Positions 1 through 27,033 of a DNA stretch of 27,033 nucleotides are shown in pieces. The stretch covers positions 1-27,033 of the IMG/VR virus record IMGVR_UViG_3300031658_002733; one strand, given 5' to 3'. This DNA comes from a virus. Under the pieces are notes generated by a model. The model had not been told where the DNA came from, did no database searches, and saw only the letters and a list, made by a program, of their open reading frames with translations. The position numbers and the translations under genes are program-made. How positions within the stretch are numbered: position 1 is the stretch's first letter; the number at the start of each line of letters is the position of its first letter.

Positions 1-555
1 GCTACTACAGTATCAGTATTTGAATCAGCTCCTAGTAAGCCTGTGATACTAGAGTTATCACTAGACATGATAGATAACATGTTAATCGTTTCCCCTCCTA
101 AAGAGGATATAGCGCTAACAGAAGAGCGAAGTACACAAGCAGCTAATATACTAGATTTCAATGGTCTAGATGTGGATGCACTAGCCGAAGATTTCTTAGG
201 TGAAGATGAATTGGAGTTTACCGAGCTTGATATAAATTATCTTGACGGAAATTTCCTGGAAGACCTGCTTAATGTGCTAGATGCTCTTGCGATATCAAAA
301 CAAGAGGATGCTTTAGCAAGTACAGGCACGGTTAAGATAACAGGGACTGCGTTTGGTCAGGATAAAGACACGCAGATTACTACTTTCATTAATGGTGAAA
401 TATTATCATTACAAAGAAGTGTTGGCAATTTTGCGAGAATAGATGTAGACAAGGCAATCGGGTACACGATTATATTTACCCAAGATGGGGTAACTAGGGC
501 CGTCACTGTTAACGGTGGAGGCACTAGTACAATAACTCTAAGTCAAGGTGGCTAA
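1..555 (+). CDS. C-terminal part of an acidic protein, possibly FecR-type cyclase partner (5' partial)
   Basis: The frame is open from the first base, so the true start lies upstream; GTG at 43 and ATG at 67 are internal candidates without a convincing ribosome site. The visible part is strongly acidic (Asp/Glu/Leu-rich over roughly residues 50-100 of the visible chain). It ends in a beta-rich tail with the motifs VKITGTAFG, IIFTQDG and ITLSQGG, and has no membrane segment. The stop TAA shares its last base with the start of the next gene, so the two are probably translationally coupled. From general knowledge, CHASE2 cyclases in bacteria are often encoded beside FecR-domain proteins, whose C-terminal parts can be acidic and beta-rich. 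That is the only basis for the FecR suggestion, because the FecR domain itself would lie outside the window. It could equally be an unrelated surface or virion protein. Confidence 0.6.
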   Translation, partial: ATTVSVFESAPSKPVILELSLDMIDNMLIVSPPKEDIALTEERSTQAANILDFNGLDVDALAEDFLGEDELEFTELDINYLDGNFLEDLLNVLDALAISKQEDALASTGTVKITGTAFGQDKDTQITTFINGEILSLQRSVGNFARIDVDKAIGYTIIFTQDGVTRAVTVNGGGTSTITLSQGG

Positions 556-2315
556 TGAAAAAGTACATTCTGCTTATACTACTGGTCTTAAGCACACCAA
601 TGATATTCCAAACAACATTAACTGAAGTTCTCAAGCTAAGAACATTTGATATATTGGTTCAAACACCAAAAGCTAGTGGTAACTTTACAGTTATGAGTAT
701 TACTGAGGAAGATGTAGAACGAGAGGGTGGTTATCCCTTCCCAAGAGATAGATTAGCACAGATACATCAAAATATAATGCGTAAGGGTGCATTAGGTGTC
801 GGTTGGGTGATCTCGTTTCCACAAAGAGACAGATTTGGTGGTGATATAGAGTTCTCAAAAGAATTGTTGATGAGCCCAAGTGTTATTGCGATGTTTGAGA
901 ATGGTAGGGGTGTGTATCCCGCTCCCACCGGGACAGTAGTTAAAGGGAACGACACCGGGGGTATGTTTACTTCTGGTATTAAGTCTAATATAGAAATACT
1001 TTCATCAAGTACTCTTGAAGGAGTGGCAATTGCCCCAACTGAGATTGATAACCTAGTTAGACGCATTCCTTTATTACTCAGAACTCCTGATGGATGGGTT
1101 GCCTCGTTTGGGACGCAGGTACTAAAATCTATAACTGGAGCGAGAAGCTATATAATAACTACAAATGAAAACGGTATTCAAGAGATAGCAGTGCGGGGTT
1201 TGCCTCCTGTTAAGACCGACAGCTTAGGACGCAAATGGATCAGTTGGATTAAGACAAGCGAGACCAGTCTACAAGAAATGGATGTTGCGGGTAAGTATGT
1301 TTTTGTAGGGGTAACTGCTAATGGAGTTATGCCACAAATAGCCACACCAGTTGGACTATTGGAGCCCCATTACATTCAAGCAGCTCTTGCGGAGTCCATG
1401 TTAGTACAAAATAGCCCTTATATACCTGATTACGCTATTACAGCAGAACTAACAATACTTATAGCCTCTGTGACCCTCACATGGCTCTTATTACACATAT
1501 TAGGTATAACTTGGGGGCTTATATCCGCAGGAGCCGTCTTGTCGCTGACAAGCTGCCTAGGCGTATATATGGTACAACAAGGTTTACTAATCGACGTAAC
1601 ATGGGCAATGATTAGCCAGTTTATCACCGCAACTATTGCTTTTTATCTTAGATTTAGACAACAGTACAAACTCAGACAACAGATTAAGAAGCAGTTTGAG
1701 CATTACCTGGATCCAAGACAAGTCAAACAATTGCAAGACAATCCTGAGTTATTGGTTCTTGGAGGAGAAAAGAGATATGCTACTTTCCTATTCACGGACG
1801 TGCGCGGATTTACTAATATGTCTGAAACTCTCCCGCCTGAGCAGGTGGCATACATAATGAACAAAGCATTAACTGCGCAGCAGTATGCTGTTCAAAGTAA
1901 TGGAGGCATGGTCGATAAGTATATAGGGGATGCAATGATGGCGATATTTAATGCTCCCTTGGACCAAGAAGAGCATGAAGCCAAGGCAGTACAAACCGCT
2001 ATGGACATAGAGGATAATATGATTGTCCTCAACAAAGAGTTAAAAGAGCAGGGCTTACCAGAGATAGTTATAGGGATAGGTATTAATACTGGAGAAGCTG
2101 TGATTGGTAATATGGGCAGCGATTCAAGATTTGATTACACTGCTATTGGAGACGCTGTTAATACGGCTGCACGCTTGGAATCTGCAACTAAAGAGCACGG
2201 TGTAGATCTTCTAATAGGGGAGTCGACAATTCAGGCGGTAGAGTCCGCGTCTACGTATATTGGGAGCATAAAAGTTAAAGGTAAGCAGAAGAAATTAAAG
2301 GTTTACACTATCTAA
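555..2315 (+). CDS. CHASE2-domain class III adenylate cyclase, membrane bound
   Basis: This receptor-type enzyme should convert ATP to cAMP on the cytoplasmic side of the inner membrane in response to a periplasmic signal. Residues 4-20 form a membrane anchor. A CHASE2 sensor with the usual LKLRTFD start follows to about residue 288, then three membrane helices near 296-317, 320-340 and 347-365. A linker with HYLDPRQV leads into the cyclase domain (about 405-586). Key residues are present: metal-binding D415 (LFTD) and D459 (YIGD), the purine-selecting pair K455 and T529, and transition-state N536 and R540. The Lys/Thr pair fits adenylate rather than guanylate cyclase. Length is slightly below the usual CHASE2-cyclase. 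The start is fixed by AAGGTGG at 543-549 and a one-base overlap with the upstream stop. It is followed 48 bases later by phage-type genes in the same direction, which is unusual. Substrate is inferred from sequence only. Confidence 0.93.
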   Translation: MKKYILLILLVLSTPMIFQTTLTEVLKLRTFDILVQTPKASGNFTVMSITEEDVEREGGYPFPRDRLAQIHQNIMRKGALGVGWVISFPQRDRFGGDIEFSKELLMSPSVIAMFENGRGVYPAPTGTVVKGNDTGGMFTSGIKSNIEILSSSTLEGVAIAPTEIDNLVRRIPLLLRTPDGWVASFGTQVLKSITGARSYIITTNENGIQEIAVRGLPPVKTDSLGRKWISWIKTSETSLQEMDVAGKYVFVGVTANGVMPQIATPVGLLEPHYIQAALAESMLVQNSPYIPDYAITAELTILIASVTLTWLLLHILGITWGLISAGAVLSLTSCLGVYMVQQGLLIDVTWAMISQFITATIAFYLRFRQQYKLRQQIKKQFEHYLDPRQVKQLQDNPELLVLGGEKRYATFLFTDVRGFTNMSETLPPEQVAYIMNKALTAQQYAVQSNGGMVDKYIGDAMMAIFNAPLDQEEHEAKAVQTAMDIEDNMIVLNKELKEQGLPEIVIGIGINTGEAVIGNMGSDSRFDYTAIGDAVNTAARLESATKEHGVDLLIGESTIQAVESASTYIGSIKVKGKQKKLKVYTI

Positions 2316-2363: not shown

Positions 2364-2567
2364 ATGAGACTATCATTTACAGAACACCCAAAAGAACTTG
2401 GTGAGACATATTTTCAACATCTTTTATTTGCCCTAATATTTTGCAGTAAAGTCACGCTTGCACTAGCAGCATGCTTGATACACGCAATACTGCCATTCCT
2501 GCTTAAACATACTGGTGGAGATATGATTAATAAGTTATCTGAAACCATAGTACAGAGGAGACCATAA
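2364..2567 (+). CDS. DUF6356-family small membrane protein
   Basis: The 67-residue product has the signature of DUF6356: an N-terminal FTEHP followed by GETYFQH, then a hydrophobic stretch at about residues 22-48 and a short polar C-terminus. The family is found in alphaproteobacteria and in many marine phage genomes, and its function is not known. One or two short membrane passes are likely. TTAGGAC about 10 bases upstream of the ATG serves as ribosome site. The stop abuts the next ATG without a gap. Small size, a central hydrophobic hairpin and a place a little upstream of the endolysin make a holin-like role possible, but nothing in the sequence proves it. Confidence 0.8.
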   Translation: MRLSFTEHPKELGETYFQHLLFALIFCSKVTLALAACLIHAILPFLLKHTGGDMINKLSETIVQRRP

Positions 2568-3927: not shown

Positions 3928-4242
3928 ATGAGCGAATTTAAAAAGCATGATGAGGGGAAAGCACAATTAAGCTTTCTCCCACTAGGACCCCTATCTAAAA
4001 TAGCTGAGGTGCTGGAGTTTGGTGCAAAAAAATATAGTCGGAGTAATTGGCGTAAAGGGTGTAACCATAATAGGTATATGGATGCGGCTTTGCGGCATTT
4101 ATTGTCCCATAATGAAGGTGAAGACTTAGATCCAGAAAGCGGATTAACACATCTGGCACACGCCGGTTGTTGTATTCTATTTCTTATCGAGCTCCAAAAG
4201 ACCCATCCAGAACTCGATTATAGAGAAAATAGCCTTGAATAG
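3928..4242 (+). CDS. dATP/dGTP diphosphohydrolase-like protein (DUF5664)
   Basis: The 104-residue, all-helical product matches the phage dATP/dGTP diphosphohydrolase N-terminal family: FGAKKY then NWRKG near residues 31-44, RYMDAALRHLLSH near 48-61, and GEDLDPESGLTHLAHA near 63-78. The acidic cluster (E62, E64, D65, D67, E69) is of the type that binds Mg and nucleotide pyrophosphate in related all-alpha NTP pyrophosphohydrolases. It may hydrolyse deoxypurine triphosphates and bias the nucleotide pool; some relatives are linked to phages that replace adenine with diaminopurine. No other gene of that pathway is in the window. It has no clear ribosome site and begins 2 bases after the metallophosphoesterase stop, so coupling is likely. 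Confidence 0.8.
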   Translation: MSEFKKHDEGKAQLSFLPLGPLSKIAEVLEFGAKKYSRSNWRKGCNHNRYMDAALRHLLSHNEGEDLDPESGLTHLAHAGCCILFLIELQKTHPELDYRENSLE

Positions 4243-4304: not shown

Positions 4305-4724
4305 ATGGCTAAATTTGGAAAAAGTTCCGTGCGCAGACTTGATACTTGTGCTCAGCCTTTACAGGCTTTAATGCGTCGTGTTGTAATTCAAAGAGACTGC
4401 TCTATCACCTGTGGTGAAAGAGGACAAGAAGATCAAGATGCTGCATTCAATGCTAAGCCTCAGTTATCAAAAGTAAAATACCCGGGCAGCAAACATAACT
4501 CTTCTCCTTCTATGGCAGTGGATGTTGTACCTTGGCCTGAAAAATGGGGCAGTACCTCTGCGTTCAAAGAGCTTGCTAAAATAGTGCAAGAAGAGTGGGC
4601 GTATATGTCTGATGAAGAAAAAGATGGTTATACCCTACGTTGGGGCGGTGATTGGGATGGTGATGGGGACACAGATGATCAAACATTTGTGGACATGCCT
4701 CATTGGGAACTTATAAGAAAATAA
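4305..4724 (+). CDS. Endolysin, M15 L-Ala-D-Glu-type peptidase
   Basis: This zinc peptidase should cut the peptide stem of peptidoglycan at lysis. The zinc-site motifs of the M15 VanY/CwlK group are present: S62-K-H64, A71-V-D73 and P132-H133-W-E135. No transmembrane or export signal is seen, so it would need a holin to cross the inner membrane. Before the last motif lies an acidic loop (about 116-125, D-W-D-G-D-G-D-T-D-D) that resembles an EF-hand calcium loop and occupies the place of the calcium-regulated loop known in the phage T5 endolysin. GGGAG about 10 bases upstream sets the start. It opens a short cluster with three small tail-type genes. Confidence 0.93.
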   Translation: MAKFGKSSVRRLDTCAQPLQALMRRVVIQRDCSITCGERGQEDQDAAFNAKPQLSKVKYPGSKHNSSPSMAVDVVPWPEKWGSTSAFKELAKIVQEEWAYMSDEEKDGYTLRWGGDWDGDGDTDDQTFVDMPHWELIRK

Positions 4725-12455: not shown

Positions 12456-13187
12456 ATGCCAGGCCTAGGTTTAGCAGCAGGAGTTACATTGGTTCTAACT
12501 ACGTTATTAGGGCTAGCTGTATATGAAGTGAGATCACAAGACAAAGAGCTAGCTGTACTAGAGATGCAGCAAGCTTTACAAACTCAAGCAATTGAGCACG
12601 CTAAGGTACTAAATACAGCGGTTGTGTCTGCACAAACAGAGGCACAAACTAAAGAGACAGCGTTAGTAACACAATTAAATTTAGCTGAAGCAGAACTATT
12701 AAGGAGATCCAGAGATGCAGAAAATCAAGCAAGTGACAAACCGATTGGTTTTGGTGATGAGTTTATTGGGGATATTATCAGGCTTGACTGCTTGTGGGCG
12801 CTTGGGAGAGCAGAGAGTGATCCTACAGCAAGAGCCGCCTGTCTTCGTGAAACCGAGTTGGCCAGTGCCTCCAGCGCGATCATTCCCGTTACCGTCATTA
12901 CCCCAGAATTTAGACAAGTCTGGGTTGAAGCCTGTGACGACTGGACCGAAATTGGAAGAAACGAATACGAACTAGAAGACTGGACAGATGAGTATGGGAA
13001 TTTTGATGATGCGATGTGTCAACAGACAGTAGTTGCATTTACACCAGAATTCTCCTATTATTTTAGAAACTTTCTCAATAACGCTGAAGCGTATACTGCA
13101 AGGCTTACAAACTTTGCTGAAGATAACAGAAGATTATTAGATGTTATTACAACACAAAGAGCTAGTACTACAACTAGTAATGAATAA
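12456..13187 (+). CDS. Inner-membrane spanin (Rz-like), long form
   Basis: Residues 6-23 form a signal-anchor helix, and the region of about 27-90 is a periplasmic coiled coil rich in Ala, Gln and Glu. This is the plan of inner-membrane spanins, which join an outer-membrane lipoprotein to fuse the membranes at the end of lysis. A lipoprotein gene is embedded in another frame (12715-12975), which confirms the call. At 243 residues it is far longer than lambda Rz; the extra 70 residues after the embedded gene contain a Trp/Asp/Glu-rich segment with Cys residues. TAGGAGAG is the ribosome site. It lies about 8 kb away from the endolysin. Confidence 0.85.
   Translation: MPGLGLAAGVTLVLTTLLGLAVYEVRSQDKELAVLEMQQALQTQAIEHAKVLNTAVVSAQTEAQTKETALVTQLNLAEAELLRRSRDAENQASDKPIGFGDEFIGDIIRLDCLWALGRAESDPTARAACLRETELASASSAIIPVTVITPEFRQVWVEACDDWTEIGRNEYELEDWTDEYGNFDDAMCQQTVVAFTPEFSYYFRNFLNNAEAYTARLTNFAEDNRRLLDVITTQRASTTTSNE
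12715..12975 (+). CDS. Outer-membrane spanin lipoprotein (Rz1-like), embedded
   Basis: The 86-residue product, read in the +1 frame inside the Rz-like gene, has a signal sequence with a lipobox LTAC ending at C27. After cleavage it leaves a short, Pro-rich chain (PPVFVKPSWPVPPARSF), the hallmark of Rz1 proteins. AAGGAG at 12701-12706, 8 bases before the ATG, gives an own ribosome site. It would be acylated and sorted to the outer membrane, then bind the coiled coil of the partner. Full nesting of the outer spanin in the inner one is as in lambda. Confidence 0.88.
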   Translation: MQKIKQVTNRLVLVMSLLGILSGLTACGRLGEQRVILQQEPPVFVKPSWPVPPARSFPLPSLPQNLDKSGLKPVTTGPKLEETNTN

Positions 13188-24814: not shown

Positions 24815-27033
24815 ATGGCGAACGAAGCCAAAATGCAAACAGTTGCTTCTGCGGGGAAGCATAAAACATCTTCTCTTTCGGATCTTTTCGATACTAAGAC
24901 ACAAAACATAGGTTCTGTTACGCAGGCTAAACAGAGTAAGATTTCAGGACCCCCTAATATTGGTGGAGCTAGTTTAGGTATGAGAGCCGAGCTCCTATTC
25001 TCGGAATCAAGTAATAACTACAGCGCAGTAAACCAACAAGGCTATACAGGCGGATTCCAATTCGGCGCTATGGCTTTGGAAACTCTTGGGTACCTCGTAC
25101 CAGGAGCATCTAAATTAGGTAATAGCGCCTTACTAGACCCAGCTAACTGGACTGGTAAAAACGGCATGGCTAATGTCGATATGTTTAAAAATAACCCAGG
25201 CGAACAAGATCTCGCTTTCCAAGCAAATACACAAAGCAATTTTAAGCAGCTAAAGAACCTAGGTGTACTTACTGATGATAGTACACAAAAAGACGTAGAT
25301 GGTTACTTAGCAGCTGCACATTTATTGGGGGCTACTGGAGCTGCCAATAATATTAATAATGCAGATGCAAATGGAACAACAGGGCAGGATTACTTTAATA
25401 AAGCAAAAGATTACTATCCTGGAATAGACGACCCAGAAAATGATCCTGCAAATCAACCTGCTGAAGCCCCGGCTTCTTTGCCGGTAGAGGAATCCCTTGC
25501 AGATCGTTATAGAGATGCATCGGTTACAGAGACTCTTGATGCATTAATAGCTGAGCAAGCAAATAGTAATCCTCGTGACGAGTTGATAGCCAAACTAAAG
25601 GCTGCTGATTCCGGTCCTAGAAGTGACGAGTTTGAAGCAGAGGTGGCCAGTATAAAAGGTGTGGCGGGTGTTGGAACTGACTCTGAGATTACCGAACAAA
25701 CGGCTAAACAAGTAGAAGATTTGGCTGCTATGCAAGCTAGAGAGAAATACATAGCTGATCGCAATGTGGGCGAGTTTGCACAAGATACTGCTTCCTCTCT
25801 TATTACAGGTATTATAGACATAGCAGGAACTGCTTATGGCTTAGCAAACTTTGGTACAGGAGGCGGATTAGACGCTGCTGTAGCTAGTATGAATAAAGAA
25901 GGTAAAGTTGGGTCACAGTATCTAGAAGATGCTAAGGCTGCTGTACGAGACACAATGGACTCTTCAACACTGACTGCGATGGAAGCACGTCAACAAGCAC
26001 GATCTACATATAGACAAGCACAGAATGCAGAGAAATATGACAACGAATGGGCTAAATTTGGGGCGAATTTCTTAGACGCAGCAGGTGAGTACGCAACTTC
26101 TCCTGGATTATCTGCAGATGCTGTATTTGACTCCCTACCGCAAATGTTTGTTCCTGGTGTTATTGCGTCTAAAATTGTTGGTGGTGTTGTTAAACAGGGT
26201 GCAATAGCTATAGCTAAGAAAAATCTCGCTAAGCGCACTACTCCAGGGGCGTCTCAAGTGTCTCGAGCATATGCTAAAGACCGTGGTGAATTTATCCCTA
26301 AAAAACAGATAAAGACATATATGGCTTCCGACGCAGGCAAAAAGGCAATATCAGATATACAGACACGTACTGGTCTATCATACATAGCTGCATCTGAAGG
26401 TGTTAGTAATGGTTTACAAATACAAGCAGAGATACTAAACGCTTCTTTTAATGATCTAAAAGAAAGCTCACCTAAGTTTAGGAAGCTTCTGTTGCAGGGT
26501 GAGAGCCCTGAGAAGGCTCGCAAATCATTAGCTAATGAAGCGGCCTTAATAACAGGAGGTATATCAGCACTATTTGGTTTAGGCGCCGCTAAAATATCTG
26601 GAGCAGGTAAACTAGAAGGAGCTATGTTTAAAGTAGACAGTAAGGTAGGTAAAGGCATTCTTAGTAAAATGGTTTCATCTAAACTATCTAAAGGCGTAGT
26701 TGCAAGTAAAGTAGTACGAGGAACTGTTTCCGAAGGAGTTGAAGAAACTCTACAAGGAGGTAGCGGAGAATTTGGTGGGAATGTAGGTAAGAAAAATACA
26801 ACCAACCCTGAACAAGACCTAGTTGAAGGCGTCGCAGATGCTGCAGCACAAGGGTTAGTAGTTGGTTCATTATCAGGCGGCGGTATGGTAGGACTAAGCA
26901 ATGTACCTGCTGGCGTGAGTAAAACTGTAGGAGCAACTTTATCAGGAGTAAATAAAGCTGCAAGTGCAGTGGAAACAGCTACCAGTGGTATAGGCAAAGC
27001 TGCTAAAGAGATACGCACAGAACGGGAAATAAC
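24815..27033 (+). CDS. Internal virion protein with lytic transglycosylase-like N-terminus (3' partial)
   Basis: The frame opens at 24815 after AGGAAATAAA and is still open at the window end, so at least 739 residues are encoded and the C-terminus lies outside. Residues about 55-95 carry a lysozyme-like transglycosylase motif: candidate catalytic E64 (FSESSNNY), then AVNQQGYTGGFQFG with Q82 and a following GAMALETLG. A helix with LAAAHLLGATGAA near 164-177 completes the domain. This order resembles T7 gp16, which opens peptidoglycan as DNA enters and then forms part of the ejection channel. Further on the chain is helical with Gly/Ala/Val-rich segments (for example about 450-465) that could enter membranes. 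The large size supports a gp16-like role. Confidence 0.85.
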   Translation, partial: MANEAKMQTVASAGKHKTSSLSDLFDTKTQNIGSVTQAKQSKISGPPNIGGASLGMRAELLFSESSNNYSAVNQQGYTGGFQFGAMALETLGYLVPGASKLGNSALLDPANWTGKNGMANVDMFKNNPGEQDLAFQANTQSNFKQLKNLGVLTDDSTQKDVDGYLAAAHLLGATGAANNINNADANGTTGQDYFNKAKDYYPGIDDPENDPANQPAEAPASLPVEESLADRYRDASVTETLDALIAEQANSNPRDELIAKLKAADSGPRSDEFEAEVASIKGVAGVGTDSEITEQTAKQVEDLAAMQAREKYIADRNVGEFAQDTASSLITGIIDIAGTAYGLANFGTGGGLDAAVASMNKEGKVGSQYLEDAKAAVRDTMDSSTLTAMEARQQARSTYRQAQNAEKYDNEWAKFGANFLDAAGEYATSPGLSADAVFDSLPQMFVPGVIASKIVGGVVKQGAIAIAKKNLAKRTTPGASQVSRAYAKDRGEFIPKKQIKTYMASDAGKKAISDIQTRTGLSYIAASEGVSNGLQIQAEILNASFNDLKESSPKFRKLLLQGESPEKARKSLANEAALITGGISALFGLGAAKISGAGKLEGAMFKVDSKVGKGILSKMVSSKLSKGVVASKVVRGTVSEGVEETLQGGSGEFGGNVGKKNTTNPEQDLVEGVADAAAQGLVVGSLSGGGMVGLSNVPAGVSKTVGATLSGVNKAASAVETATSGIGKAAKEIRTEREI

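Follow-up and report, generated by a model that had tools for sequence, protein, structure and literature searches.

Curli genes linked to a cyclic nucleotide-producing enzyme have been described in phages before. A curli (T8SS) cassette that includes FecR and adenylate cyclase genes is known from podovirus and myovirus pelagiphages, where HTVC023P-type podoviruses and pelagimyophages are the carriers; it is found across ocean stations and is expressed, and one or two genes before CsgF are labeled as histidine kinases (PMC9599517). The curli part of the phage cassette is also described in two further papers (PMC7029224, PMC9004378). Phages HTVC008M and Melnitz carry the cassette; Melnitz, a myovirus of Methylophilales, has the arrangement CsgF–CsgG–curlin–FecR–curlin–cyclase, in which a second curlin gene sits between FecR and the cyclase within an otherwise shared order. 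A lysis role was proposed for the Melnitz curli genes, with a pinholin or secretin suggested for the curli pore, in a text that mentions neither cyclase nor FecR (PMC9004378).

Related pairs are also found in bacteria. The accessible portions of two papers describe, as in the phage loci, a gene for an exported FecR-domain protein beside one for a CHASE2 class III cyclase, both in S. meliloti (SMc02177/CyaD1; PMC5498481) and in Campylobacterota clusters (PMC9239204); these portions mention no curli genes, and the partners they give are a TPR protein, a phosphodiesterase and Clr. In S. meliloti, CyaD1 without its CHASE2 domain produces cAMP constitutively, and the FecR-domain gene is dispensable for plant signal perception (PMC5498481). 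At the level of the catalytic domain, cyanobacterial CyaC and P. aeruginosa CyaB (1wc1, 3r5g) share the class III fold and catalytic residues with the phage enzyme, whereas their sensor domains differ from it.

We analyzed a linear virus record of 27,033 bases (referred to hereafter as the window), which, being linear, is probably a fragment of a genome. A FecR–cyclase pair lies at its start, and the first-pass annotation had considered that no system of this type was described in podoviruses; this was mistaken, because PMC9599517 reports the podovirus cassette with both genes. The published cassette and those of the closest relatives of the window (L002, L006, L277) consist of the same gene families in the same order. 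The window cassette differs from the published one in its N4-like phage, in a GC content of 42% and in the DUF6356 gene that comes after the cyclase.

A CHASE2 receptor-type cyclase with an intact catalytic site

The plus-strand ORF at 555..2315 encodes a protein of 586 residues in which a CHASE2 sensor domain, predicted to be periplasmic (aa 14–301, positions 594..1457; PF05226, 81.5 bits against a cut-off of 26.3 bits), is followed by three membrane helices (aa about 294–382, positions 1434..1700; 294–315, 317–341 and 349–382 in the model) that lead into a class III nucleotide cyclase domain (aa 404–586, positions 1764..2312). The cyclase domain matches PF00211 (Guanylate_cyc) over aa 409–585 at 72.2 bits, against a cut-off of 21.9 bits, and this order of sensor, helices and cyclase is that of a CHASE2 receptor cyclase; the ORF also matches phrog_35576 across its full length (420 bits). 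An AlphaFold model (mean pLDDT 84.8) comprises an N-terminal helix, an alpha/beta sensor domain, the three membrane helices and the cyclase domain. Its closest solved fold is CyaC (1wc3/1wc1), and the cyclase domain was also aligned with the CyaB and Cya2 structures.

Class III enzymes are recognized by two metal-binding Asp residues, a Lys with Thr, Ser or Asp for adenine, and an Asn and Arg for the transition state. All six residues named when the gene was first called a complete CHASE2–cyclase (D415, K455, D459, T529, N536 and R540) are indeed present, and both Pfam domains score above cut-off. D415, D459, K455, N536 and R540 are invariant in the homologue alignment (A4), and the catalytic sites read DDK[T/S]NR in 142 of 143 phage cyclases, the window enzyme among them. 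The sole exception is the Melnitz cyclase (DDKDSR, with D at position 529), which is about 31% identical to that of the window; D, D, K and R are kept in all 143. Pairwise comparison of close homologues gave a median dN/dS of 0.14, which together with the scores and the conservation excludes chance, and together with the intact sites indicates that the gene is constrained as an enzyme. We predict that ORF 555–2315 is a phage-borne receptor-type adenylate cyclase, able to make cAMP. In one related locus (L037:3308–5095) the cyclase is split over two frames, possibly as a pseudogene or through a sequencing error.

The FecR partner and adjoining genes

Immediately 5′ of the cyclase, the plus-strand ORF at 1..555, truncated on its 5′ side where the contig begins, covers the C-terminal half of a periplasmic protein of the FecR-domain type. 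The ORF aligns to positions 197–380 of the 382 of phrog_37870 (the last 184 residues, 90 bits), and the FecR domain itself lies, with the curli genes, beyond the contig end. Full-length homologues of this ORF (L012:6892–8001 and L017:6332–7429) match the Pfam FecR family PF04773 at 34–40 bits. The suggestion that the partner may be FecR-like is right on account of these two family matches. A model of the FecR protein (pLDDT 51.7) was too low in confidence for fold assignment.

The FecR stop shares one base with the cyclase ATG (GGCTAATG; junction TAATG), as first noted, and an overlap of 1 or 4 bases recurs at this junction in 89 of 143 loci. One locus (L086:1694–2857) carries an inserted ORF resembling a DNA cytosine methyltransferase between FecR and the cyclase. 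Downstream, a gene for a small hydrophobic DUF6356 protein (2364..2567, plus strand; PF19883, 79.6 bits) begins 48 bases after the cyclase stop, in agreement with the original call, and it comes after the cyclase also in the related N4-like contigs L005, L277, L278, L279 and L281. Promoters and terminators predicted at the locus were no more numerous than in shuffled sequence. Further along the window, positions 3928–4242 encode a protein of only 104 aa that consists of an N-terminal dATP/dGTP diphosphohydrolase domain on its own (PF18909, 111 bits).

The pair is probably the distal end of a curli cassette

Comparison with relatives indicates that the pair is not a stand-alone two-gene module. 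In relatives with enough upstream DNA the gene order is fixed, running CsgF, CsgG, a curlin-repeat protein, FecR and the CHASE2 cyclase. Among the 80 viral cyclase loci closest to the window, FecR lies 5′ of the cyclase in 54/54 with room to judge, as in the window itself (ORF 1–555), and each of the 30 with 4.3 kb or more has the full order; when CsgG is taken as the starting point, its 80 nearest viral loci have FecR and the cyclase 3′ of it in 54/54 with room, all these counts covering nearest homologues and under-sampling rarer arrangements. Some relatives have a second curlin-like gene between FecR and the cyclase, and the same-lineage contig L277 has CsgF, CsgG and a curlin gene 5′ of the pair. 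On the basis of gene order in its relatives, the window pair is probably the distal end of a CsgF–CsgG–curlin–FecR–cyclase cassette cut by the contig end.

Before CsgF, nearly all of 36 loci encode one or two small proteins (about 80–117 aa; phrog_18771) with one transmembrane segment and a coiled coil, and with weak matches to holin families (E 0.005–0.1). These occupy the place of the histidine kinases labeled in PMC9599517. A kinase domain was sought in five of the small proteins and none was found, and among deposited phages a phrog_18771-type protein occurs in only six records (HTVC008M twice, Melnitz four times), all of cassette carriers. Judging by loci L006–L083, the published “histidine kinase” is probably this small transmembrane/coiled-coil protein, which casts doubt on the label and not on membership of the cassette family.

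In bacteria, CsgF was detected in only 5 of 289 alphaproteobacterial genomes (4 above cut-off). Three of the loci appear chromosomal, and the sequence around them, to a distance of about 9 kb, contained no cyclase; the idea of bacterial curli operons that include a CHASE2 cyclase was accordingly rejected for these CsgF loci, which are too few to generalize from. The fourth above-cut-off locus (L354, in a Maricaulis MAG) is a phage contig with CsgF–CsgG–curlin–FecR and holin-like and lysozyme genes directly 3′ of FecR. It has no cyclase. The module therefore does not require the enzyme, and L354 is a ready point of comparison for what the cyclase does. Short phage contigs with the curli cassette occur inside several GTDB MAGs (L084, L085, L086, L088, L354) labeled as Pelagibacter, Maricaulis, Neomarinimicrobiota and Flavobacteriaceae. 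Such contigs may have been binned wrongly, or they may point to hosts. A 1.5 kb record named “Salmonella phage S.Kent 1-2-1” (OR851715.1) matches CsgG at 45% and may be host DNA.

The cassette is carried by an N4-like phage

The genes 3′ of the cyclase are all phage genes on the plus strand, and the contig is phage throughout, which upholds the initial placement of the cyclase in a plus-strand phage gene block. At the far end of the window, positions 24815–27031 hold the start of a virion RNA polymerase gene (phrog_2206 match, N4-type), and the closest matches of the portal and major capsid proteins are N4-like isolates. By these three genes the window phage is an N4-like (Schitoviridae) marine podovirus. 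Several related contigs measure 67–79 kb; the window is a 27 kb piece, N4-like genomes being about 70 kb.

The position of the cyclase and its partner at the extreme contig end would suit a contig start made of recent bacterial DNA or created by chimeric assembly. We consider this very improbable. The window, L278, L005 and L277 form a single clade in the cyclase tree (SH-aLRT 99), and L005 and L277 join the N4-like genes of the window's portal region to the cassette and DUF6356; in all, two or three contigs other than the window link this clade to N4-like portal, terminase and DUF6356 genes. GC content is nearly equal at the contig start (41.2%) and in the remainder of the window (41.6%), the closest sequenced matches are all viral, and genome-collection matches above 45% identity are small MAG contigs of viral appearance. 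A search of related phages for the same pair, which had been called for, thus found it in L005, L277 and L278, and a bacterial origin of the contig start was rejected on these grounds.

The neighbor of this clade in the cyclase tree is L002/L003/L275; N4-like genes were searched for in L002 and L003 and none was detected. In L277 the cassette is flanked by a tail-fibre gene and the portal gene, and in the window it lies 5′ of exonuclease and terminase. The cassette is accordingly the lineage's own and has occupied two places in it. Cassette genes were found in none of the 160 loci nearest to the window portal or terminase (fetched flanks of up to 10 kb could miss some), so the cassette appears uncommon in this lineage.

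CHASE2 diverges together with the FecR domain

Co-divergence was assessed from pairwise distances across 96 loci. Distances in CHASE2 correlate best with those in the FecR domain (r 0.57, the same after dereplication, and 0.66 when a divergent clade is left out), and less with the FecR C-terminus (0.39–0.47) and the linker (0.31–0.36), both of which are nearer on the DNA. Lower values were obtained for CHASE2 against CsgG (0.21–0.30) and curlin (0.20), and the cyclase domain of the same gene correlates with the FecR domain at only 0.10–0.18. Given CsgG, the partial correlation of CHASE2 and the FecR domain is 0.55–0.65 (p 0.001, partial Mantel test with permutation). Linkage alone would favor the nearer segments, and direct contact between the FecR domain and CHASE2 is therefore reasonable, if not proven. 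The pattern suggests that the two domains form a sensor pair, although past recombination can also make domains co-diverge.

Lysis genes beside the cassette and cAMP receivers in hosts

After dereplication, 44 of 55 loci have a gene for a holin, spanin or endolysin no more than 4 kb 3′ of the cyclase, and all 18 loci with both flanks have one on at least one side. On the same contigs, 0 of 64 three-kilobase windows taken away from the cassette contained such a gene. These loci share ancestry and are not independent, and the lysis queries were drawn from cassette contigs. The genes belong to several unrelated families, and an i-spanin start can overlap the cyclase stop. The recognized lysis gene nearest the cassette end in the window is an endolysin (4305..4724, plus strand; phrog_465, 89 bits), 1,990 bases 3′ of it. 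Elsewhere in the window, positions 12456–13187 (plus strand) encode a 243-aa protein with one N-terminal transmembrane segment, in which another frame (12715–12975) contains an ORF of 86 aa that has a proline-rich tail and a lipobox-like motif (SGLTACG); this looks like a nested i-spanin/o-spanin (Rz/Rz1) pair, neither ORF having a family match.

Such a neighborhood is what one would expect if the whole cassette were a lysis or envelope-permeability module, in which CsgG/CsgF would act as an outer-membrane leak or release pore, the small membrane proteins would be holin-like, and FecR and the cyclase would time lysis. The proposal made for Melnitz (PMC9004378) and the single transmembrane segment, coiled coil and holin matches of the small upstream proteins point the same way. 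The holin scores are weak, however; no lysis gene was found near the myovirus cassettes (within 4 kb in HTVC008M and Melnitz, with the query set used); neighborhood does not equal function; and the secreted curlin-repeat protein that the cassette retains would be superfluous to a pure pore. We regard this explanation as possible and the less likely one.

A further proposal, that the phage rewires host CRP control, was not supported. Here the cyclase would raise host cAMP, and CRP-type regulators would alter carbon use or other genes, with the curli genes as passengers or targets. The intact class III site, the presence of cNMP-binding proteins in 212 of 289 sampled Alphaproteobacteria and the feeding of gammaproteobacterial cAMP into curli control via CsgD (discussed in PMC9599517) are in its favor. 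In the SAR11 family, however, which includes the best-known hosts (and Pelagibacter genome G001), a cNMP-binding domain was found in 5 of 118 genomes, class I cyclase in none and class III cyclase in 3, one of them below the family cut-off, many of these genomes being possibly incomplete. The G001 class III cyclase sits on phage contig L084, and that of G336 resembles the HTVC008M/Melnitz type. A cNMP-binding protein (PF00027) was absent from 20 cassette-phage records, two of them complete, and a phage-encoded cAMP receptor was rejected accordingly. Takeover of host CRP is doubtful in SAR11 because of these two counts, and the cyclase travels with FecR and the curli genes, not alone. We judge control through host CRP unlikely in SAR11 hosts, and the explanation as a whole unlikely; the host of the window phage may be from another group.

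Discussion

We favor, with moderate confidence, a reading in which the window retains the sensory, distal part of a mobile type VIII (curli-type) secretion cassette of phages, with a FecR-to-CHASE2 envelope sensor, in an N4-like marine podovirus. CsgG and CsgF would form a phage-encoded pore in the outer membrane of the host, through which curlin-repeat proteins would be exported. Periplasmic FecR may report the state of the pore, the substrate or the envelope directly to CHASE2, and this signal would switch the class III cyclase and raise cytoplasmic cAMP late in infection, in step with the adjoining lysis genes.

Although widespread in the ocean, the curli cassette of phages has been without a settled function since 2020. 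What is new here is an N4-like carrier of this already published cassette, to which the analysis adds a catalytic site intact in 143 copies, a cyclase gene evolving with the FecR domain, and lysis genes adjoining the cassette in most carriers. It also exposes a gap, in that the SAR11 family of the best-known hosts seems nearly devoid of a cAMP receptor. Tentatively, as an idea on which we would place little weight, the cassette may be a trans-envelope relay running from curli pore or substrate through FecR to the CHASE2 cyclase; it would then make a cyclic nucleotide in hosts without the usual cAMP receptors, for some other receiver, and so time or condition secretion and lysis.
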